Of a stretch of 64,000 nt of DNA, positions 9,690 through 19,382 are shown one piece after another (the first letter of the stretch is position 1; each line of letters begins with the position of its first letter). This stretch comes from Pigmentiphaga sp. NML030171 (GTDB lineage: Bacteria; Pseudomonadota; Gammaproteobacteria; Burkholderiales; Burkholderiaceae_B), in assembly GCF_002188635.1 (NCBI RefSeq), contig NZ_NINX01000051.1, forward strand, positions 1 to 64,000. The letters are read 5' to 3'. Below the pieces are notes generated by a model. That model was not told the DNA's origin. It was given only the letters and a program-made list of their open reading frames with translations, and did no database searches. Both the position numbers and the translations under genes were made by a program.

Positions 9690-9908
9690 ATGAACCCCGA
9701 AGATCTGCAACGCCTGGTAACGGTCGCCATGCCCTACGGCAAGTACAAGGACAGGCTGATCGCCGACCTGCCCGGTCCCTACCTGGCCTGGTTCGCCCGC
9801 AAGGGATTCCCGCCCGGCGAACTGGGGCGCCTGCTGGCGCTGATGCACGAAATCGATCACAACGGGCTGTCGCCGCTGCTGGCGCCGCTGCGCCAGCGGT
9901 CACGATGA
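9690..9908 (+). CDS. Small DUF3820 family protein
   Basis: 72 residues beginning at ATG 9690. The sequence has the DUF3820 signature: MPYGKYKDRLIADLPGPYLAWFARKGFPPGELGRLLALMHEI, a short domain once labelled a quorum-sensing-regulated virulence factor. No biochemical role is established and none is claimed here. It has no signal peptide or membrane segment. The last nine bases overlap the convergent GntR gene. Confidence 0.85.
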   Translation: MNPEDLQRLVTVAMPYGKYKDRLIADLPGPYLAWFARKGFPPGELGRLLALMHEIDHNGLSPLLAPLRQRSR

Positions 9909-10607
9909 TGCGCGGCGACGCTTCTGGAACAGCTCGAGCGCATGCAATCCAACCGCGCGGGCACGCTGGTTCTGAAGCACGATGGCCGCCTGCGCGGCTT
10001 CGGGGTCGCGTTCGCGTATCGCGTCCAGAAGACGGTGGAACTCATCCACGCTTTCCGCCGGCCGGTTCGGATGATTCATCGATGACGCCCACAGGAAACC
10101 CAGGCGTGCATTGATCTTGCGAATGAAGGCCGCGAGCGGTTCGTTCCTGGCTCCCGCGACGAAGGCTTCGAACAATTGATGCTTGGTCGCGCGTATGCGC
10201 GGCACGTCGCGCGAAACCAATGCCTGCTCGAACTCGTCGATGCGCACGGCGAAGGCGTCCATCTGCTCGGGCGTGCCGCGCGTCGCGAAACATGCCGCCG
10301 CCAGTTTCTGCAGGGCCACCCGCACTTCGTGCAGCTCGTGGAATTGCGCTTCGTCGATCGCCCGCACGGCAGGCCCGCGATGCGGCGCCACTTCCAGCAA
10401 GCCTTCGCCGTCGAGTTGCCGGATGGCTTCGCGCATCGATGGGCGGCTGGCGGCAAAACGTTCACACAGCTCCCGTTCGGTCAGCTTGTCGCCCGGGAGA
10501 TAGACCCCTTCGGTGATGGCATCGCGCAGGCGGTCGGCCAGTTGCTGCCGGGCCGGATCGCCGGCCGGCACGGCGGTCTCGTTCAAGGCAACGATTTTTT
10601 GGTCCAT
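9900..10607 (-). CDS. GntR-family regulator, FCD/VanR-type
   Basis: ATG 10607 gives 235 residues, the usual FCD length; an upstream ATG at 10682 is possible but would add a tail not typical of the family. Winged helix at about residues 20-85 (LRDAITEGVYLPGDKLTERELCERFAASRPSMREAIRQL), followed by an all-helical FCD ligand-binding domain with the metal-type His/Asp pattern (KHQLFEAFV, FHRLLDAI). It is divergent from the Bug-RraA-hydrolyase-RidA cluster and is very likely its repressor. Two TTGTC-type palindromes sit in the divergent region. Confidence 0.87.
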   Translation of the reverse strand: MDQKIVALNETAVPAGDPARQQLADRLRDAITEGVYLPGDKLTERELCERFAASRPSMREAIRQLDGEGLLEVAPHRGPAVRAIDEAQFHELHEVRVALQKLAAACFATRGTPEQMDAFAVRIDEFEQALVSRDVPRIRATKHQLFEAFVAGARNEPLAAFIRKINARLGFLWASSMNHPNRPAESVDEFHRLLDAIRERDPEAAQAAIVLQNQRARAVGLHALELFQKRRRASS

Positions 10608-10691: not shown

Positions 10692-10766
10692 TTGTCTTAC
10701 ATTATTGAAAATAACGCCCGTTTCATGGCATATTTTCGCCAACAATAACAAAATTTGTCATACAAA
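10692..10766. promoter_or_regulatory. Paired GntR operators in the divergent region
   Basis: TTTGTCATACAAA at 10754-10766 is a 13 bp palindrome (TTTGT, 3 bp, ACAAA). TTGTCTTACATT at 10692-10703 matches 9 of 12 positions of the same motif. They are about 63 bp, or six helical turns, apart. TTGT-N-ACAA motifs are normal targets of VanR/FCD GntR proteins, and the region is AT-rich compared with its surroundings. Confidence 0.6.
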
Positions 10767-10804: not shown

Positions 10805-11785
10805 ATGCCGCTGCACTCCCGGCTCCTGGCCACGGCGCTGGCCCTGGCCGCCGCCATCGCTTGCGCCCCCCAGGGCGCCAGCGCCCAGTCCTATCCGACC
10901 CGCCCCGTGCGCATCATCGTTCCGCATGGCGCCGGCTCGTCGCCCGACACCATCACGCGCCTCGTCGCGCAACACCTGGGCGAGCGCCTCGGGCAGCCAT
11001 TCGTGGTCGAGAACCGCGCCGGCGCCGGCGGGACCATAGGCCTGGGCGCCGCCGCCCGGGCCCCCGCGGACGGCTACACGCTGACGGTGGGCCACATCGG
11101 CACGCTCACCATCAATCCGAACGTCTACAGCAAGCTGCCTTACGACCCGGTCAAGGACTTCGCGCCCATCATGCTGTCGGCCCGCACGCCCCTGGTGGTC
11201 GTCGTTTCCGCCGAGTCGCCCTACAAGTCGATCGCCGACGTCATCGCCGCCGCCAAGGCCGACCCCGGCAAGCTGACGTTCTCATCGGCCGGCAACGGCA
11301 CCGCCTCGCACATGTCGGGGGAATATTTCAAGGCACTCGCGGGCATCTCCATCACCCACGTGCCGTTCAAGACGGCGCCCGAAGCCCTGACCGGCGTCGC
11401 CAGCGGCGCCGTCACCCTAACGTTCGGCGGACAGCCTCCGGCCTGGCCCATGGTCAAGGCCGGCAAGCTGCGGGCGCTGGCGCTCACCAGCGACCAACGG
11501 GTGGCGGAATTCCCCGACACGCCCGTGGTGGCCGAGACGCTGCCGGGCTACGAGATGTTCGACTGGAACGGCTTCATGGCGCCCGCGGGCACGCCTGTCG
11601 CCATCATCGACACGCTGCACACGGCCATCGCGGCCATTCTTGCCGAGCCGGGCGTGGTGCGCCAATTGCGCGGACAGGGGCTCCTGCCCATGGCCAACAC
11701 GCCCGAGCAGTTCGCCCGCTTCATCGATGCGGAGCGAGGCAAGTGGGCGCGCGTCGCCAAGGAAGTGAAGATCCAACTCGACTGA
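10805..11785 (+). CDS. Bug/TctC-family periplasmic solute receptor
   Basis: ATG 10805 lies nine bases after GAGGAG. 326 residues with a signal peptide ending GASA-QSYPTRPVRIIVPHGAG. The Bug motifs VVENRAGAGGTIGLGAAARAPADGYTL, FSSAGNGTASHMSGEYF, HVPFKTAPEALTGV and the ETLPGYE segment are present. It is the first gene of a cluster with an RraA-type aldolase, a hydro-lyase and RidA. Bug proteins usually bind di- or tricarboxylates, so the cluster probably degrades such an acid. No permease genes accompany it. Confidence 0.9.
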   Translation: MPLHSRLLATALALAAAIACAPQGASAQSYPTRPVRIIVPHGAGSSPDTITRLVAQHLGERLGQPFVVENRAGAGGTIGLGAAARAPADGYTLTVGHIGTLTINPNVYSKLPYDPVKDFAPIMLSARTPLVVVVSAESPYKSIADVIAAAKADPGKLTFSSAGNGTASHMSGEYFKALAGISITHVPFKTAPEALTGVASGAVTLTFGGQPPAWPMVKAGKLRALALTSDQRVAEFPDTPVVAETLPGYEMFDWNGFMAPAGTPVAIIDTLHTAIAAILAEPGVVRQLRGQGLLPMANTPEQFARFIDAERGKWARVAKEVKIQLD

Positions 11786-11793
11786 GGAAGGCC

Positions 11794-12414
11794 ATGGGAA
11801 TGAGCGTGGAACAACTCGCGAGCCTGCTGGCCGGCGCCTCCGCGGCCGCGGCCTATGAAGCCCTGGGCCGCCGCGGCGACCTGGACCCGGTCATCGGCAC
11901 GCAAGTGCCGGGCACGGTCTGCATCGGCCCGGCATACACCGTGAGCGCACCACCGCACCGCAGCGGATCGGCGAACCAGGCGCTCGACCTGGCTCCGCCC
12001 GGTTCCGTACTGGTCATCGACACCGGCGGCGATCCGGATACTTGCGCGCTCGGCGGCACCGGTTCGCTGGCCGCGCAGATGCGGGGCATCGCCGGCTGCG
12101 TCACCAACGGCCGCGTGCGCGACCTGGCCGAGATCCGGGCATTGCGATTCCCGGTGTTCGCACGCGGCGGCACCGTGCGCAGCAGCCGCAAGGACGGAAC
12201 GGCCGAACTCCAGGTCCCCGTGGCGATCGGCGGCCAGATCGTGCGCCCGGGCGATCTCGTCTGCGCCGATGATGACGGTGTCGTCGTCATCGGGCAGCAA
12301 TATTTCGATATCTTCGCCGAACGCCTGGCCGCCCGCCTGGCCTTCGAACGCGATGCCGATGCGCGGGTTCGGGCCGGTATCCCGTACGCGCAGGCCGTCA
12401 GCGGCCGTCCGTGA
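11794..12414 (+). CDS. RraA/MenG-fold protein, probable HMG/CHA-type class II aldolase
   Basis: 206 residues from ATG 11794 (ATG 11800 is an alternative; GAGGAAG at 11784-11790 serves both). The family contains the RNase E inhibitor RraA and the 4-hydroxy-4-methyl-2-oxoglutarate / 4-carboxy-4-hydroxy-2-oxoadipate aldolases. Here R109-D110 in VTNGRVRDLAEIRALRFPVFARG keeps the arginine-aspartate pair that the aldolases use for substrate and metal binding, so a catabolic aldolase producing pyruvate is more likely than an RNase regulator. It lies eight bases after the Bug gene and is followed by two aconitase-like subunits. Confidence 0.82.
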   Translation: MGMSVEQLASLLAGASAAAAYEALGRRGDLDPVIGTQVPGTVCIGPAYTVSAPPHRSGSANQALDLAPPGSVLVIDTGGDPDTCALGGTGSLAAQMRGIAGCVTNGRVRDLAEIRALRFPVFARGGTVRSSRKDGTAELQVPVAIGGQIVRPGDLVCADDDGVVVIGQQYFDIFAERLAARLAFERDADARVRAGIPYAQAVSGRP

Positions 12415-12440
12415 CCGGCCCCAAGCATGGAAGCTCCCAC

Positions 12441-13694
12441 ATGGGCATGACTCTCGTTGAAAAGATGCTGGCCCGCGCCAGCGGCAAGACTTCGGTCCGG
12501 CCGGGCGACATCGTGCTGCCCGAGCCGGAACTGGTCATCCTGCACGATGGCTATGTCGAAACCGCCTACAAGCAGTTGCACGACATCGGCTATCGCCGCG
12601 TCACGCATCCGGAGCGGGTGGTCTTCGTCACCGACCACCAGGTCGTCTACACCACTCCGGCCTCGATCCTGCGCGGTCGCGCCAATCGGCGCATTGCCGG
12701 GGAATGGCGCATCGGCCACTTCCACGATGCCGGCCAGGGCGGGCACGGCCACCTCTTTCCCATGGAAAACGGCCTGGTCAGGCCCGGCATGTTCCTCTTC
12801 GCCTACGACATGCACTGCACGAACTTCGGCGCCATCGGCGCATTCGCGATGCGCGCCGGGCCCAACGTGGTATCGGTGCTGGCCACGGGCACGACCTGGA
12901 CCGTCGTGCCGCACACGCTGCGCGTCACGCTGGAAGGCCAGCCGCCGCCCGGCGTGCATCCCCGCGACGTCGGTTTCTGGCTGGCCCATCGGCTGGCCTC
13001 GGGAGAACTGGGTGTCGAATTCGACTATCGCGTGGTGGAGTTCGGCGGTTCGTACTGCGATCGCTTGCCGCTGTCGGGACGGGTCGCGCTGTGCAATACC
13101 TTGACCGAGATCGGCGTGCTCAACATCGTGTTTCCGCCCATGTCGCCGCTGGGCGCGCCCCGCGACGGCAGCTGGCTGGAAAGCGATGCCGACGCCCGCT
13201 TCGAACATACGCTCGCGCTGGACGTCTCGCGCCTGGCGCCGCAGGTGGCGCTGCCGGGCTCGCCCGATCGAGCGGTCCCGGTCGGGGATACCGTGGGTGT
13301 CGCGATCGATCAGGCCTACCTGGGATCCTGTGGATCGGGCATGTACGAGGACTTCCAGGCCGCCGCCGAGGTGCTTGCCGGCCACCGGGTGGCGAACGGG
13401 GTGCGCTTCATCGTCGTGCCGGGCACCGTCGAGACGGCCAAGCGCATGGCGCGCGACGGCCTGACCCAACGCTTCCTGGACGCCGGGGCCATCCTGCTCC
13501 CCCCCGGCTGCGGCCCCTGTGCCGGCGGCGCCGGCGGTCCCCTGGCTTCCGGGGAAGTGTCGATCTCGACCGCAGCCACCAATGGCCAGGGCCGCATGGG
13601 CGCGAAGGACGCCTATTGCTACCTGGGCAGCCCGCTTACCGTGGCGGCGTCCGCCATCGCCGGCCGGATCGCCGATCCGCGCCCGGCGCATTGA
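12441..13694 (+). CDS. Divergent aconitase-superfamily dehydratase, large (LeuC-like) subunit
   Basis: 417 residues from ATG 12441. The [4Fe-4S] cysteines are at 297, 357 and 360, exactly the 60- and 3-residue spacing of isopropylmalate isomerase. Other family marks are changed: the usual GDSHT loop reads AYDMHCTNFGAIG, and the active-site NFEGR loop reads ATNGQGRMG. The protein should pair with the next gene product to dehydrate or isomerise a hydroxy-di- or tricarboxylate in the cytosol. It is too divergent to be called LeuC. 2,3-dimethylmalate or methylcitrate-type substrates are possible relatives, but none is shown by the sequence. Confidence 0.75.
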   Translation: MGMTLVEKMLARASGKTSVRPGDIVLPEPELVILHDGYVETAYKQLHDIGYRRVTHPERVVFVTDHQVVYTTPASILRGRANRRIAGEWRIGHFHDAGQGGHGHLFPMENGLVRPGMFLFAYDMHCTNFGAIGAFAMRAGPNVVSVLATGTTWTVVPHTLRVTLEGQPPPGVHPRDVGFWLAHRLASGELGVEFDYRVVEFGGSYCDRLPLSGRVALCNTLTEIGVLNIVFPPMSPLGAPRDGSWLESDADARFEHTLALDVSRLAPQVALPGSPDRAVPVGDTVGVAIDQAYLGSCGSGMYEDFQAAAEVLAGHRVANGVRFIVVPGTVETAKRMARDGLTQRFLDAGAILLPPGCGPCAGGAGGPLASGEVSISTAATNGQGRMGAKDAYCYLGSPLTVAASAIAGRIADPRPAH

Positions 13695-13707
13695 GGAGTT
13701 CCCATCG

Positions 13708-14247
13708 ATGAACTGGATACAACGCGGCACCGCCCATGTGCTGGGCCATGACGTTCCCCACGACGGCGCGGTCATGGCGTTCGACATCGTGCTCTCGCGC
13801 AACACCAATCCCGGCGAACTGATCCCGCATCTCTTCGCCGAACTCGATCCGGGCCTGGCCGGCCGCATCCGTCCCGGCGACCTGATCGTCGCCGGCCGCA
13901 ACTTCCTGGCCGGCAAGGCGCACAACACCGGCATCATCGCCATGAAGGCGCTGGGCCTGGGCATTCTGTGCGAGTCCATGTCGGTGCGCGCCTTCCAGGG
14001 CGTGGTGGCGCTGGCCGTGCCCGCGCTCGCGTCCTGCAGCGGCATTGTGGACGTGCTGTCCGACGGGGAAGAGATCGAAGTGGACTACGCCAACGGCACC
14101 GTCACGCGATGCGCCACCGGCCAGGTCCACCGCTACCCGCCGCTGGCACCCGAGATACGCGCCATGATCGGCAACGGCGGCATGCGCGGCGCCCTGCAGG
14201 CCCATCTGCGCGCGCATCCCGAACTCGGCCGGCCCTACGCGGAGTAG
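13708..14247 (+). CDS. Aconitase-superfamily dehydratase, small (LeuD-like swivel) subunit
   Basis: 179 residues from ATG 13708, 14 bases after GAGGAG-bearing end of the large subunit gene. It has the swivel-domain layout: a short N-terminal region (DIVLSRNTNPGELIPH), GDLIVAGRNFLAGKAHNTGIIAMKALGLGIL, and a C-terminal strand region with DGEEIEVDYANGTV. The canonical catalytic loop GCGSSREHA is replaced by LAGKAHNTG, so the serine and arginine used by aconitase and isopropylmalate isomerase are missing at that place. The pair is therefore likely to have a different reaction or substrate. Confidence 0.75.
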   Translation: MNWIQRGTAHVLGHDVPHDGAVMAFDIVLSRNTNPGELIPHLFAELDPGLAGRIRPGDLIVAGRNFLAGKAHNTGIIAMKALGLGILCESMSVRAFQGVVALAVPALASCSGIVDVLSDGEEIEVDYANGTVTRCATGQVHRYPPLAPEIRAMIGNGGMRGALQAHLRAHPELGRPYAE

Positions 14248-14278
14248 ACTACGGGCCTTTCCTTCGAGGCCCGCCACC

Positions 14279-14671
14279 ATGCCCTTGCAAGCCCACTACG
14301 CCAAGACGCTGCCCAAGCCACGCTTCCGCTACACCCCCTGCATCCAGGCCGGCCCCTATTACCAGCTGGCCGGCATGATCGCGCTCGATGCCCAGAGCGG
14401 CCAGCTGGAAAGCGGCGGCGTCGCCGCGGAAACGGACAAGATCATGCGCAACATGCTGGGCGCCCTGCCCGAATACGGACTGGCCCTGGACCAGCTCGTC
14501 ATCGCGCGCATCTTCACCACCCGCTTCGACCAGTTCGCCGAGATCAACCGCGTCTGGGAAGGCTATTTCCCCGAAGGCACGACCCCGCCCGCGCGCACCG
14601 CCATGGGCGTCGTGGCCCTGCCGCTGAACGCCACGGTGGAAATCGAGTTCTGCTTCTACCGCGAGGCCTGA
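14279..14671 (+). CDS. RidA/YjgF/YER057c family protein
   Basis: 130 residues with the Rid fold markers YYQLAGMIALDAQSGQL, the central LDQLVIARIFTT and the active-site PPARTAMGVVALPLNATVEIEF, which keeps the arginine that binds carboxylates in imine-hydrolysing RidA proteins. Rid proteins hydrolyse reactive enamine/imine intermediates or, in catabolic clusters, act as specific deaminases. It ends the Bug-RraA-dehydratase cluster 31 bases after the small subunit gene. A role in that pathway is inferred from position. Confidence 0.85.
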   Translation: MPLQAHYAKTLPKPRFRYTPCIQAGPYYQLAGMIALDAQSGQLESGGVAAETDKIMRNMLGALPEYGLALDQLVIARIFTTRFDQFAEINRVWEGYFPEGTTPPARTAMGVVALPLNATVEIEFCFYREA

Positions 14672-14726: not shown

Positions 14727-15536
14727 TCAGCCTTGCAGCGCGAGCGCGTTGGGGCCGCCCTTCAGGTAGGCCAGGATGCTGCAGGCGGTGCTGGCCGAGG
14801 TCTTCGGATTGGCGGCGGACGGTTCGGCCTGCGTATCGAAGCGGAACTCGCCCAGCACGCCGCGCGCCTCGATCCGGTGGCTGTTGCGCGTGGCGGCGGG
14901 ATCCGCGACCAGCGTGACCCGGGTGGCGTCCAGCCCGGCTCCCGCGAGGGCGACCGTGGCCGCCACGTTGGCATTCCGCGGATAGCGCCGCGCCACCTCG
15001 CGGGCGCTGCCTTCGAACACGACGGCCGGTCCGGCCAAGGCATGTAGATCGCAGGCCTGTTCCGCCGGGGTGCCCAGCCAGGCGCGCGGCGGCTTGATAC
15101 CGGTATAGCGGACCTCGACCGGGCCGGCGGCGCGGGCCGTGGCCAGCGCGTCCAGGCCGCCGATGGCGCCGCTGATCAGGTGCAGCCGGCGGCCGGTCCT
15201 GGCCGCTTCCTCCTTCAACGTCCGCAGCAGGCCGTCGTCGGCCAGCGCGCCGGCCGAGACCAGCGCGAAATGGCGGCCGCTGCGCAGCACGTCGGCGCCG
15301 TATTGCGCCACGGCGCCCTGGCCCGCCGCCTCGATCACCAGGTCGACTTCCCTTGCCAGCGACGCGATGTCGCCAACCGGTTCGATCGAAGGCGGCAACG
15401 ATGCCGCCGCCTCGCCTTCCTTGCCCGCGCGCACGACGACGTTGCGCACGTCGGCGCAGGCATCGCCGGCCAGGGCATCCAGCAGGCCGCGGGCAATCCC
15501 GCCCAGTCCGATCACGGCTATGGTGGGTCGGGTCAT
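14727..15536 (-). CDS. Aspartate dehydrogenase
   Basis: 269 residues from ATG 15536, which overlaps the stop of the IclR gene as ATGA. N-terminal Rossmann fold (TIAVIGLGGIARGLLDAL) and the domain found in NadX-type L-aspartate dehydrogenases: VIEAAGQGAVAQYGADVLRSGRHFALVSAGALAD, HLISGAIGGLDALA, YTGIKPPRAWLGTPAEQ, and RYPRNANVAATVALAGAGLDATRVTL. The enzyme interconverts L-aspartate and iminoaspartate/oxaloacetate plus ammonia. With no nadA or nadC here and a TRAP transporter divergent from it, a catabolic rather than NAD-biosynthetic role is likely. Confidence 0.87.
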   Translation of the reverse strand: MTRPTIAVIGLGGIARGLLDALAGDACADVRNVVVRAGKEGEAAASLPPSIEPVGDIASLAREVDLVIEAAGQGAVAQYGADVLRSGRHFALVSAGALADDGLLRTLKEEAARTGRRLHLISGAIGGLDALATARAAGPVEVRYTGIKPPRAWLGTPAEQACDLHALAGPAVVFEGSAREVARRYPRNANVAATVALAGAGLDATRVTLVADPAATRNSHRIEARGVLGEFRFDTQAEPSAANPKTSASTACSILAYLKGGPNALALQG

Positions 15537-16342
15537 TTGAGGTCCGCGTTCATCTGTTTGGAAAAAATCGCCGCGAGCTTGCTGGCGGCATCGAGCAGGG
15601 CGCGCTTCATTTTCTCGTCGTCGTAGCCCTGCATGCGCTGCGAAGGCCCGACGATGGACACCGAGAACATCACGCCGACCTGGGAAAGCGGTATGGGCGC
15701 GGCCACCGCCACCAGCCCGCGGTCGATCTCCTCCCGGCAATAGGCGATGCCGGTCTTGCGAACCCGCCGCAATTCGTCCCGCAACTGCTGCGGCGAAGTG
15801 ATCGTGCGATCCGTCAGCGCGGGCAGCGGCTCGTCCAGCAGCGCCTCCCATTCCCGTTCGTCGCGAAACGCCAGGATGGCCTTGGCCGAGGCCGCCGCAT
15901 GGGGCGGCATGACGTGGCCCGGGTTGACGTAGCCGTGCCAGTCCTTGGGCGGCGTGGCCATGACGATGCTCTCGATGCGATTGCCGCGCAGCATGCTCAG
16001 GAAAGCCGTCTCCTGGAACTGCTCGACCAGGCCGTAGAGCACGGTATGGGCGACCGCCGCCATCTGGTCGGGCGAAATCGCCGTTCCCAGCAGCCGGCGC
16101 ATGCGCCCGCCCAGGAGATAGGTGCGGCGCGCGTTGCCCGCCTCCGCCTCGAACGGCGGTTCGGCGTCCAGGCAGCCGGCGCGGCACAAACCGGCCAGCA
16201 TCCGGTGCAGCGTGCCCTTGGGCATGTCCAGCGCCGCCTGTATCTCGCCGAACGCCAGCCCGGCGGGATGGCGCGCGACCAGTTCGATCACCTGCATCTG
16301 CCGTTCCAGCAGGAACCGGTTCTTCGACGACTCTTCTTCCAC
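15533..16342 (-). CDS. IclR-family transcriptional regulator
   Basis: GTG 16342 is chosen because GGGAGGAG lies just before it; the upstream extension reads through the promoter region and is not family-like. 269 residues: N-terminal winged helix (QVIELVARHPAGLAFGEIQAALDMPKGTLHRMLAGLCRAG, about residues 15-55), then the GAF-like IclR effector domain with RGNRIESIVMATPP, HAAASAKAILAF, and GIAYCREEIDRGLVAVAAPI. It shares an operon with aspartate dehydrogenase and is divergent from the TRAP transporter. A perfect inverted repeat upstream is its probable operator. Confidence 0.88.
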   Translation of the reverse strand: MEEESSKNRFLLERQMQVIELVARHPAGLAFGEIQAALDMPKGTLHRMLAGLCRAGCLDAEPPFEAEAGNARRTYLLGGRMRRLLGTAISPDQMAAVAHTVLYGLVEQFQETAFLSMLRGNRIESIVMATPPKDWHGYVNPGHVMPPHAAASAKAILAFRDEREWEALLDEPLPALTDRTITSPQQLRDELRRVRKTGIAYCREEIDRGLVAVAAPIPLSQVGVMFSVSIVGPSQRMQGYDDEKMKRALLDAASKLAAIFSKQMNADLK

Positions 16343-16392
16343 ATCTCCTCCCAACGTGAGCCAGGCGAAATTTTGCCCGCAATGAAAACGCC

Positions 16393-16422
16393 TTGACGAA
16401 ATTACGTGCCAACCTGCATTAT
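16393..16422 (+). promoter_or_regulatory. Possible sigma-70 promoter of the TRAP operon
   Basis: TTGACG at 16393-16398 and CATTAT at 16417-16422 are separated by 18 bases. The pair lies just upstream of the IclR-type operator, so a repressor bound there would block transcription start. The -10 box is weak, so this is tentative. Confidence 0.35.
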
Positions 16423-16443
16423 GTTCCATATAACGATAGATTA

Positions 16444-16460
16444 GTTCCGAAAAACGGAAC
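16444..16460. promoter_or_regulatory. IclR-type operator, perfect inverted repeat
   Basis: GTTCCGAAAAACGGAAC has perfect 6 bp arms around five A residues. It lies in the divergent region between the IclR/aspartate dehydrogenase operon and the TRAP genes. The arms resemble known IclR-family targets (TTCCG/CGGAA). The following T run is not a terminator, because no gene precedes it on that strand. Confidence 0.6.
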
Positions 16461-16518
16461 TTTTTTTGCCGGACCCGGGCCGGCTTCCTTTCATCGACCC
16501 AGTGCAAGGGGGAACTCC

Positions 16519-17553
16519 ATGCGTAAGAACCATGCTTTGAAGCCGCTCGTGGCCGCCGCCATGGCAGCCGCCGTCCTGGCCGGTCCGGCCCACGCCGCCG
16601 ACAAGAAAGTCAGCCTGCGGCTGTCGCACAACCTGCCCACCACCAACCCCCTGCACTACGGCGTGCTGGTTCCCTGGGCGCAGTCGATCGAAAAGGACTC
16701 GGGCGGCAGCATCGCGATCCAGGTATTCCCCGCGCAGCAACTGGGCCCCGCCAAGGACCACTACAACCTGGCCCGCGACGGCATCGCCGACCTGGCCTTC
16801 TACCTGGTGGGTATCGAGCCGGGCCGCTTCCCCATCGTCACCGCCGCCGAGATGCCCTTCCTGGTGTCCGACACCGCCAAGGGCTCGCGGGCGCTGTACG
16901 AGTGGTACCAGCCCTACGCCAAGAAAGAGATGGCCGACGTCAAGGTCTGCACCATGTTCTATGACGGCGGCGGCACCATCCATTCCAAGAAGCGCATCGA
17001 AAGCCCCACCGACCTGGCCGGCCTGAAGATCCGTTCCCCGAACGTCATGGCGGCCAACTTCTACCGCCTGTCCGGCGCCTCGCCCGTCCAGCTGTCGGCG
17101 TCCGACGCGGCCGAAGCCGTCGAGCGCGGCGTGGTGGACGCGATCTCGTTCCCCTGGAACCTGCTGCAGGCCCTGGGCGCGGACCGCGCGTTGACCTATC
17201 ACCTCGACATGAACTTCTATTCGCTGGGCACGGCGATCCTGATGAACAAGTCGTCGTACGGCAAGCTGTCGGCCGACCAGAAGAAGGTCATCGACAACCA
17301 CTGCAACGCCGACTGGGCCGAGCGCCTGCCCATGCCCTGGTACAACTGGGAACAGGAAGGCCGGGCCGCGCTGCTGAAGAAGCCGGGCCACACGGTCTAT
17401 ACGATCTCGGACGCCAAGGTCGGCGAATGGAAGGCCATGGCCGCCAAGGTCCGCGGCGAATGGGAAAACAGCGTCAAGAAGAACCGCGTCGACGGCGCCA
17501 AGGTGTTCGGCGAACTGCAGGACACGCTGAAGAAATACAACGCCGCCTACTGA
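16519..17553 (+). CDS. dctP: TRAP transporter periplasmic substrate-binding protein (DctP family)
   Basis: 344 residues, AGGGGGA ribosome site before ATG 16519. Signal peptide ends AHA-ADKKVSLRLSHNLPTTNPLHYG. DctP-family features follow: IQVFPAQQLGPAKDHYNLARDGIADLAF and the conserved arginine region PTDLAGLKIRSPN that binds the substrate carboxylate, then DAISFPWNLLQALG. The protein captures an organic acid in the periplasm for the Q/M membrane subunits encoded next. The aspartate dehydrogenase, hydrolase and amidase around it suggest an amide or amino-dicarboxylate type ligand, which is inference. Confidence 0.92.
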   Translation: MRKNHALKPLVAAAMAAAVLAGPAHAADKKVSLRLSHNLPTTNPLHYGVLVPWAQSIEKDSGGSIAIQVFPAQQLGPAKDHYNLARDGIADLAFYLVGIEPGRFPIVTAAEMPFLVSDTAKGSRALYEWYQPYAKKEMADVKVCTMFYDGGGTIHSKKRIESPTDLAGLKIRSPNVMAANFYRLSGASPVQLSASDAAEAVERGVVDAISFPWNLLQALGADRALTYHLDMNFYSLGTAILMNKSSYGKLSADQKKVIDNHCNADWAERLPMPWYNWEQEGRAALLKKPGHTVYTISDAKVGEWKAMAAKVRGEWENSVKKNRVDGAKVFGELQDTLKKYNAAY

Positions 17554-17572
17554 CCGTCCGACGGGCATCGCC

Positions 17573-18064
17573 ATGAAACAACGTCTGCTTGCCTTCCTCG
17601 AGTTCGTGCCGTCGGTCCTGCTGCTGTGCATGGCGATACTCACGTCCGCATCGGTGGCCACGCGCTACCTCTTCGCCTACCCGCTTCCGGACGAGTACGA
17701 GATCTCGCGCCTGCTCCTGAGCGTGGTGGTGTGCTGGGGCATCGCGGCGGCCTTCCGCCATGACGACCACATCCAGCTCGACATCTTCTGGAGCGCGCTG
17801 GGGCCGCGCGCCAAGCGCGTACTGACCCGCATCGGCGCCGCGCTGTGCCTGTGCATCGTCGGCGGCTTCTCCTACGCCCTGGGCACCAAGGTCGTCGACG
17901 TCTTCGAAGCGGGGCTGCTGACCGTGGACCTGGAACTGCCGGTCTGGGGCTTCTACACCGCCGCCTGGCTCGGCACCCTGGCCTGCTTCTTCATCCTGCT
18001 CCAGCAGGTCATCGCTCCCCCCGAGCCGGAGGCCCACGACGGCCATCCGGACGCCACGGTCTGA
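17573..18064 (+). CDS. dctQ: TRAP transporter small membrane subunit (DctQ family)
   Basis: 163 residues with four predicted transmembrane helices: around residues 10-30, 45-62, 85-105 and 125-148. The family mark is the charged segment FRHDDHIQLDIFW after helix two. DctQ pairs with DctM in the inner membrane to drive sodium- or proton-coupled uptake of the ligand bound by DctP. It lies 19 bases after dctP and 13 bases before dctM. Confidence 0.9.
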   Translation: MKQRLLAFLEFVPSVLLLCMAILTSASVATRYLFAYPLPDEYEISRLLLSVVVCWGIAAAFRHDDHIQLDIFWSALGPRAKRVLTRIGAALCLCIVGGFSYALGTKVVDVFEAGLLTVDLELPVWGFYTAAWLGTLACFFILLQQVIAPPEPEAHDGHPDATV

Positions 18065-18077
18065 ACGGACGCACACC

Positions 18078-19382
18078 ATGATCGGCCCCAATCTCGCCAT
18101 CCTCATCGGCTTCGGCTCCCTGCTGCTGCTCTGCCTGCTGCGCGTCCCCATCGGCCTGGCCATGGGCGCCTCCGGCATCCTGGGCTTCGGCCTGATGACC
18201 GGCTTCGAGCCCGCCTTCAAACTGCTGTCGCACTCCGTCATTTCCACCTTCTCCGACTACACCATGGGGCTGGTGCCGCTGTTCATCCTGATGGGCACGG
18301 TGGCCGTGGCCTCGGGCATGAGCGGGGAGTTGTTCCGCGCCGCGCAGCTCTGGCTGGGCAACTTCCGCGGCGGCCTGGCCGTGGCCACCGTGGCCTCGTG
18401 CGGCGGCTTCGCCGCCATCTGCGGCTCGTCGGCCGCCACCGCCGCCACCATGACGCGGGTCGCCCTGCCCGAGATGAAAAAGCACGGCTATTCGGAACGC
18501 CTGGCCACCGGCGTGATCGCGGCCGGCGGCACGCTGGGCGTGCTGATCCCGCCCTCGATCGCGCTGGCCGTCTACGGCTTGCTGACCCAGCAAAGCGTGG
18601 GCCTGTTGTTCATGGCCGGCGTCATACCGGGCATCATCGCCATCGCCATGTACATGCTGGTGGTCAAGGTGTGGCTGGCCGTGCGCCCGCAGGATGCGCC
18701 GGCAGGCCAGCAGGCCGCGATGCGCGAACGCCTGTCCAGCCTGACGCGGCTCGGTCCCATCATGCTGCTCATCCTGTTCGTCATCGGCGGCATCTATGGC
18801 GGCCTGTTCACGCCCACCGAGGCCGGTGCCGTGGGCGCCGCCGGCGCCATCGCCATCGTCGCACTGGGCCGGCGCCTGTCCTGGAAGACGCTGTTCTCCT
18901 CACTGGCGGAAAGCGTCCGCATGGGCGCGGCCATCCTGCTGATCATGGCGGGCGCCGTGCTGTTCGGCTACTTCCTGGCCGTGACCGAGACGCCGCAGAA
19001 GGCGGCGCAACTGCTCATCGACGCCAACCTGGGCCGCTATGGCACGCTGCTCGTGATCATCGGCATCATGCTGGTGCTGGGCTGCCTGATCGATGCCCTG
19101 GCAGTGGTCATCCTGATCGTGCCCCTGGTCTATCCCATCGTGATGCAGCTGGGCTTCGATCCGATCTGGTTCGGCGTGATCGTGACCATGTGCGTGGAGC
19201 TGGGCCTCATCACCCCGCCCTTCGGGCTGAATGTCTTCGTGATCAAGGGCCTGTCCAAGCGGACCGACATCTGGACCATCTACAAGGGTGTCACGCCCTT
19301 CATCATCGTGGACCTGCTGCGCATAGGCCTCCTGATCGCCTTCCCCAGCCTGGTGCTGTTCCTCCCCGACATGGCGCGCTGA
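18078..19382 (+). CDS. dctM: TRAP transporter large membrane subunit (DctM family)
   Basis: 434 residues, hydrophobic throughout (about 12 helices), the normal DctM length. Characteristic stretches: VPLFILMGTVAVASGMSGELFRAAQLWLG, ASCGGFAAICGSSAATAATMTRVALPEMKKHGYSERLATGVIAAGGTLGVLIPPS, and GVIVTMCVELGLITPPFGLNVFVIKG, which forms part of the conserved substrate path near the C-terminus. It is the transport subunit of the complete TRAP system encoded at 16519-19382. Confidence 0.94.
   Translation: MIGPNLAILIGFGSLLLLCLLRVPIGLAMGASGILGFGLMTGFEPAFKLLSHSVISTFSDYTMGLVPLFILMGTVAVASGMSGELFRAAQLWLGNFRGGLAVATVASCGGFAAICGSSAATAATMTRVALPEMKKHGYSERLATGVIAAGGTLGVLIPPSIALAVYGLLTQQSVGLLFMAGVIPGIIAIAMYMLVVKVWLAVRPQDAPAGQQAAMRERLSSLTRLGPIMLLILFVIGGIYGGLFTPTEAGAVGAAGAIAIVALGRRLSWKTLFSSLAESVRMGAAILLIMAGAVLFGYFLAVTETPQKAAQLLIDANLGRYGTLLVIIGIMLVLGCLIDALAVVILIVPLVYPIVMQLGFDPIWFGVIVTMCVELGLITPPFGLNVFVIKGLSKRTDIWTIYKGVTPFIIVDLLRIGLLIAFPSLVLFLPDMAR

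Follow-up and report, generated by a model that had tools for sequence, protein, structure and literature searches.

In aconitase, Ser642 acts as the general base and the iron-sulfur cluster as the Lewis acid. In classical aconitases, isopropylmalate isomerases (IPMIs) and homoaconitases, this serine and its loop belong to the conserved part of the active site (PMC8184944). In HMG/CHA aldolase Arg123 is critical, and the N71A and K147A exchanges strongly lower kcat (PMC5065237; the text prints '1114-fold', in which a dash may have been lost). Here we analyzed a 64,000-nucleotide stretch of Pigmentiphaga sp. NML030171 (contig NZ_NINX01000051.1, positions 1 to 64,000; hereafter the window), in which five genes at 10805-14671 encode a Bug receptor, an RraA-type aldolase, a LeuC-like and a LeuD-like subunit and a Rid-family protein.

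By sequence comparison, the LeuC/LeuD-like pair belongs to a distinct subfamily of the aconitase superfamily. The component families of the operon are each known; what sets it apart is that the subfamily has a rebuilt active site and is repeatedly coupled to carbon-carbon (C-C) lyases. The pairing across relatives points to an undescribed route of organic-acid breakdown. Full-text searches of one open-access library found no paper on such an operon, which is not proof of absence.

Active site of the LeuC/LeuD-like pair

Aconitase 1aco served as the reference for the large-subunit columns, and residues were counted in 60 rows; these counts, like the 57-row counts for the small subunit, still contain one duplicate (L083, a repeat of L013). 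Cys297, Cys357 and Cys360 align with aconitase residues 358, 421 and 424 and were present in all 60 rows. The earlier note on this DNA had placed the cysteines at the exact IPMI spacing. This agrees with Escherichia coli LeuC; in the comparison with the Methanocaldococcus jannaschii structure 4nqy there is one extra residue between the first two. The residues aligned with aconitase His147, Asp165, His167, Glu262 and Arg452 were unchanged in 60/60 rows. The pair Asp65-His66, which we take to be Asp100-His101 of aconitase, was found in 59 rows, the last row being cut off. Other positions were changed: Ser166 to Met (31), Arg (21), Thr (7) or Phe (1), Asn446 to Ala (39), Thr (16), Val (3) or Ser (2), and Arg447, in all 60 rows, to Thr (31), Asn (21), Gly (5) or Ala (3). 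The Thr-Asn behind the first cysteine is replaced by Gly (58) or Ala (2) followed by Ser (60).

The small subunit differs in the catalytic loop. The GSSR loop of IPMI, presumably equal to aconitase 642-644, was found in none of the 57 subfamily small subunits, which carry GK[APT]H (31) or G-x-K (26), so that the loop lysine is conserved in 57/57 in one of two forms. Among 19 other small subunits 18 had GSSR; these are a convenience sample from fetched relatives and the genome of the window (tblastn gave 21, of which two short ones were dropped). Since the cluster ligands and most mapped large-subunit residues are kept while the Ser-Ser-Arg loop is gone, the hydroxyl-handling half of the active site looks intact and the proton-abstracting half rebuilt.

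The two subunit models had a mean pLDDT of 85.7 and 87.9, and their best fold matches were IPMI subunits. Foldseek matched both predicted folds to IPMI, homoaconitase and aconitase (E 3.8e-42 for the large subunit against IPMI and homoaconitase), with structures of aconitase X (AcnX) only 16th and lower for the large subunit; the fold of the small subunit is of the IPMI small-subunit type (E 2.6e-15). Among solved structures, those of IPMI and homoaconitase subunits are closest both in sequence and in predicted fold, as expected if the pair were a plain isopropylmalate or citramalate isomerase. The large subunit nevertheless remained below the curated NCBIfam cut-offs (LEU2, 274.9 vs 610.65 bits; leuC, 134.1 vs 560.25), as did the small subunit (leuD, 53.9 vs 245.85), which has no Pfam match and is matched by LeuD/DmdB models below their cut-offs. 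The genome of the window also carries, elsewhere, four full-length Aconitase matches of LeuC length (509 to 609 bits). Because of the lost catalytic loop, the missed cut-offs and these other full-scoring LeuC-like copies, we rejected the plain isomerase, which is nearly excluded. The earlier note had named a plain isopropylmalate isomerase as a finding that would overturn its proposal.

Alternatively, the pair may neither hydrate nor dehydrate, being a non-enzymatic sensor or catalyzing a different iron-sulfur reaction. The absence of the general base loop would fit this, but 60/60 rows keep the cysteines together with most of the other catalytic residues mapped, and the conservation of cluster residues together with the subfamily's own loop lysine suggests selection for catalysis. 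We therefore regard a pair without hydro-lyase activity as highly unlikely.

The small subunit of a Paraburkholderia relative is annotated 'hypothetical protein'. On plasmid p22B1P2 of Paraburkholderia sp. 22B1P (L088, 8989-10351) a GKAH-type small subunit is directly followed by a beta-keto acid cleavage enzyme (BKACE), and no large-subunit match was found in the 18.5 kb stretch.

Distribution and phylogeny of the subfamily

Relatives were searched with the large subunit as query (E <= 1e-100). They were found in 17 of 268 genomes of the family, in 26 of 399 genomes sampled from the order and in one of 398 sampled from the phylum, that one being the window's own; the three samples overlap. 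We compared 60 large-subunit genes, of which 59 were unique after removal of the duplicate; the comparison covered 58 of the 66 distinct large-subunit places listed, plus L014. In the LeuC tree the 59 subfamily loci formed one clade with 100/100 support, and six other LeuC rows fell outside it.

One of these loci, L061, has two subfamily large-subunit genes in tandem followed by a single small subunit. Another divergent LeuC/LeuD-like pair beside a Bug gene was found in the genome of the window (L008, 8213-10022) and on a plasmid of Roseomonas marmotae (L089, 4524-6522); its small subunit has a His-His-Asn-His stretch at the position of the IPMI Ser-Ser-Arg. L008 adjoins the subfamily clade on a long branch.

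The genome carrying the operon is 5.86 Mb, with the operon on contig C55; at this locus it is closest to Pigmentiphaga kullae and other Alcaligenaceae. A second, paralogous operon with the same gene set is present in this genome under a LysR regulator (L006).

Association with C-C lyases

A C-C lyase was found near 28 of the 59 loci: RraA at 17, BKACE at eight and an HpcH/HpaI aldolase at three, i.e., members of three unrelated families. Neighbors were taken from codon-usage gene calling and clustering, with some stretches cut by contig ends, and lyase families were named by Pfam on representatives. All 28 loci belong to the GK[APT]H branch, which has 30 unique loci; the two without a lyase are L014, where the contig ends about 120 bases past LeuD, and L044. 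In the 29 loci of the other branch, neighborhood comparison and profile search found no C-C lyase, and profiles of the three families run over all 897 called proteins gave no hits beyond those in the 28 loci and in the duplicate.

The arrangement varies between loci, with the orders Bug-RraA-LeuC-LeuD, RraA-ABC importer-LeuC-LeuD and Bug-LeuC-LeuD-RraA. Two kinds of RraA were found, mutually 26-43% identical. In the LeuC tree, loci with RraA fall into two separate parts, as do those with BKACE, some of the separating forks being moderately supported (94/81, 90/88). RraA-type and HpaI-type pyruvate aldolases are termed evolutionarily convergent in the title of a cited paper. Of the 13 RraA genes in the genome of the window, two adjoin its two subfamily LeuC genes; among the remaining places listed, RraA and aconitase-family genes are separated by more than 5 kb. 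Accessory genes near the loci (GNAT, glyoxalase-like, hydrolases, amidase, aminotransferase) gave no consistent hint to the substrate.

Receptor, Rid protein and regulation

A Bug gene was located within four genes of 56 of the 59 loci. The genome of the window has at least 150 Bug genes (a lower bound, as 150 of 357 candidates were scored) against five TctA genes, a strong case of orphan receptors, and by a rough estimate assuming about 5,500 genes a locus would have a Bug neighbor by chance in some 20% of cases. The association with C-C lyases carries more weight. No TctA gene was found beside the operon; the nearest of the five on the same contig is at 204394. Most of the Bug ligands named in PMC5812351 are either small carboxylates or amino acids. 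At L036 and L037 an ABC importer (permease, ATPase and solute-binding protein) replaces Bug, its genes lying between and after those for RraA, LeuC and LeuD.

All five genes proposed in the earlier note were recovered in the same direction, with intergenic gaps of 8, 26, 13 and 31 bases when LeuC starts at the ATG at 12441; an alternative GTG start at 12411 would give a 4-base overlap with rraA. The Rid gene was found near only five of the 59 unique loci, all of one genus, so that the conserved core consists of Bug, RraA, LeuC and LeuD. RidA as a general member of the set was thus not supported. The logic proposed in the earlier note, a hydro-lyase step followed by chain cleavage, is supported by the repeated position of a non-IPMI pair beside a C-C lyase (28/30 GK[APT]H loci against 0/29 of the other branch).

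Table 1. Positions of genes and putative regulatory sites of the operon in the window.
Feature	Position	Strand	Basis
GntR-family regulator with FCD domain, divergent, upstream of the operon	9900..10607	-	Pfam GntR 65.3 bits, FCD 73.7 bits
First operator-like site TTGTCTTACAT, one arm imperfect	10692..10702	.	Intergenic alignment; putative function
Weak sigma-70-like promoter match	10705..10734	+	9/12 consensus positions; not evidence of function
Operator-like site TTGTCATACAA	10755..10765	.	Conserved in intergenic alignment; putative function
Bug/TctC periplasmic solute receptor	10805..11785	+	Pfam TctC (PF03401) 239.5 bits (gathering score 27 bits)
RraA-like class II aldolase	11794..12414	+	Pfam RraA-like 138 bits; gap-free alignment with 3noj
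LeuC-like large subunit, divergent putative [4Fe-4S] hydro-lyase	12441..13694	+	Pfam Aconitase 198.5 bits
LeuD-like small subunit, G69-K70-A71-H72 in place of IPMI G-S-S-R	13708..14247	+	
Rid-family protein, accessory, genus-specific	14279..14671	+	Pfam Ribonuc_L-PSP (PF01042) 80.9 bits; curated TIGR00004 74.1 vs cut-off 106.25

The operator-like site TTGTCATACAA is placed downstream of the weak promoter-like match. It was found to be identical in all five window-type loci of the genus (the window, L084, L010, L011 and L012) and also in L038, which is from another genus and has a rearranged operon. At the first operator-like site L013 carries TTGTAAGACAA where the window has TTGTCTTACAT. The form TNGTNNNACNA, which we assume to be typical of FCD-type GntR operators, was present in 7/7 intergenic regions examined; TTGTNNNACAA occurred 14 times in 934,096 bases of fetched DNA. 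Exact copies of TTGTCATACAA numbered three genome-wide. Besides that of the window, one (L087, position 4170; G000:C54:98169-98179) heads a different operon that also encodes a GntR regulator and a Bug receptor, and the third (L086) had no evident link. No terminator-like site was found on the + strand inside the five genes. The arrangement, this lack of internal terminator-like sites and the conserved operator-like site suggest that the five genes form one GntR-controlled unit.

Downstream of the operon (14727-19382) an aspartate dehydrogenase-like gene and an IclR regulator face a TRAP-type transporter set.

RraA and the proposed pathway

Residues 14-195 of RraA align without gaps with HMG/CHA aldolase 3noj, and E22, R26, R109, D110 and K133 match its E36, R40, R123, D124 and K147. 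The Arg-Asp pair of pyruvate-releasing aldolases, which the earlier note had pointed out, is R109 and D110 in the operon's RraA and was kept in all 18 aligned RraA rows (17 unique).

We think it probable, if well short of certain, that the genes form an operon under GntR control that serves to take up and degrade an organic acid, with capture by Bug, an altered hydro-lyase and cleavage by RraA. The Bug receptor would capture the acid, its membrane partner being a TctAB set encoded at another place in the genome. The LeuC/LeuD-like heterodimer would be a [4Fe-4S] hydro-lyase in which Lys-Ala-His of the small subunit takes the place of the proton-abstracting Ser-Ser-Arg loop, and because this loop is replaced, its substrate should differ from citrate and isopropylmalate. 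Hydration or dehydration by the pair would give a 4-hydroxy-2-oxo carboxylate, or else an equivalent beta-hydroxy carbonyl acid, which RraA would split by retro-aldol cleavage to pyruvate and a second small carbonyl (oxo) acid. Neither a dehydrogenase nor a kinase is encoded in the operon, so the two products probably feed straight into central metabolism. In the loci that have it, RidA may remove reactive imines or enamines. We infer the reaction, its direction, the substrate and products, as well as GntR control and co-transcription.

Several observations weigh against this proposal. In RraA, Ser57 and Asn61 replace Asn71 and His75 of HMG/CHA aldolase, and the protein scores below the curated cut-off for that enzyme (86.8 vs 304.5 bits). 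The function of RraA-family proteins can differ, FlDet being a dehydratase/decarboxylase (PMC8563752). Half of the subfamily loci (29/59) have no such lyase nearby, and as the loci are related by descent, the pairings cannot be counted as independent. Given the large number of Bug genes, a Bug gene next to the pair is weak evidence. Finally, BKACE acts on beta-keto acids, as its Pfam name states, so that BKACE partners fit poorly to a shared 4-hydroxy-2-oxo product; the subfamily may serve several substrates.

Two specific substrate classes, HMG/CHA-forming acids and sugar acids, are favored for a first trial. In the first case the pair would act on HMG/CHA-forming acids in place of the known hydratases, which are not of the aconitase type. 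HMG/CHA aldolase is the best characterized RraA relative among solved structures with a named enzyme activity, and the products would need no further enzymes (reactions given in PMC5065237). However, no ring-cleavage or aromatic genes are among those adjoining the operon, and the replaced residues Asn71 and His75 are substrate residues, which together with the missed cut-off makes this route unlikely.

In the second case a sugar acid or other polyhydroxy acid would be dehydrated by the pair, and RraA (HpaI in relatives) would split the resulting 2-keto-3-deoxy acid to pyruvate and an aldehyde. The loss of second carboxylate-binding residues, with the Arg447 equivalent absent in 60/60 rows and the Ser-Ser-Arg loop gone, is in keeping with a substrate that has a single carboxylate close to the cluster, and HpcH/HpaI aldolases pair with sugar-acid dehydratases. 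An RraA-like protein is active in uronate breakdown (PMC8563752), and a TTT transporter is reportedly tied to alginate use (PMC13390454). On the other hand, the operon has no aldehyde-handling enzyme, BKACE partners do not fit, and the Bug ligands named in PMC5812351 are mostly of another kind. We consider a sugar acid rather unlikely.

RraA might instead decarboxylate a beta-keto acid such as oxaloacetate. Oxaloacetate decarboxylase activity occurs in class II pyruvate aldolases, HMG/CHA aldolase among them (PMC5065237), BKACE partners are also beta-keto acid enzymes, and FlDet is a precedent (PMC8563752). Three related loci, however, have HpaI partners, which points to aldol cleavage, and decarboxylation in place of cleavage seems improbable to us.

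Beyond the proposed uptake and cleavage operon, we tentatively raise the possibility that the pair founds a new class of the aconitase superfamily. Here a Lys or Lys-His general base would replace the serine and act on 2-oxo acids, or on hydroxy acids yielding them, and coupling by lineage to three unrelated C-C lyases would make up a family of undescribed acid-degradation pathways in Burkholderiales. A subfamily that keeps the cluster ligands and drops the serine loop beside C-C-cutting enzymes is a testable case of a superfamily gaining new chemistry, and the operon offers a way to approach what orphan Bug receptors, RraA-like proteins and BKACE proteins do.

Comparison with known systems

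The pair shares with IPMI and homoaconitase (LeuCD and HacAB; M. jannaschii structures 4kp1, 4nqy, 4kp2, 3vba and 2pkp) the two-subunit layout, both folds, the cluster cysteines and the Asp-His pair. It differs from them in the replaced Ser-Ser-Arg loop, the changed equivalents of Ser166, Asn446 and Arg447, and scores below the curated cut-offs. Maleate hydratase and dimethylmalate dehydratase are catabolic LeuCD-like hydro-lyases and share with the pair its proposed catabolic use.

AcnX, which includes cis-3-hydroxyproline dehydratase and mevalonate 5-phosphate dehydratase, is a precedent within the superfamily for other substrates and rebuilt sites (PMC8184944), and was a distant fold match of both subunits. 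Unlike the pair, which keeps the classical cysteines and loses the serine, AcnX has other cluster-binding sites and Ser70 as the likely base (PMC8184944). Compared to HMG/CHA aldolase of Pseudomonas putida F1 (3noj), the RraA of the operon lacks Asn71 and His75 and has a score below the curated one, but it belongs to the same fold family and has the Arg-Asp pair and the equivalents of Glu36, Arg40 and Lys147.

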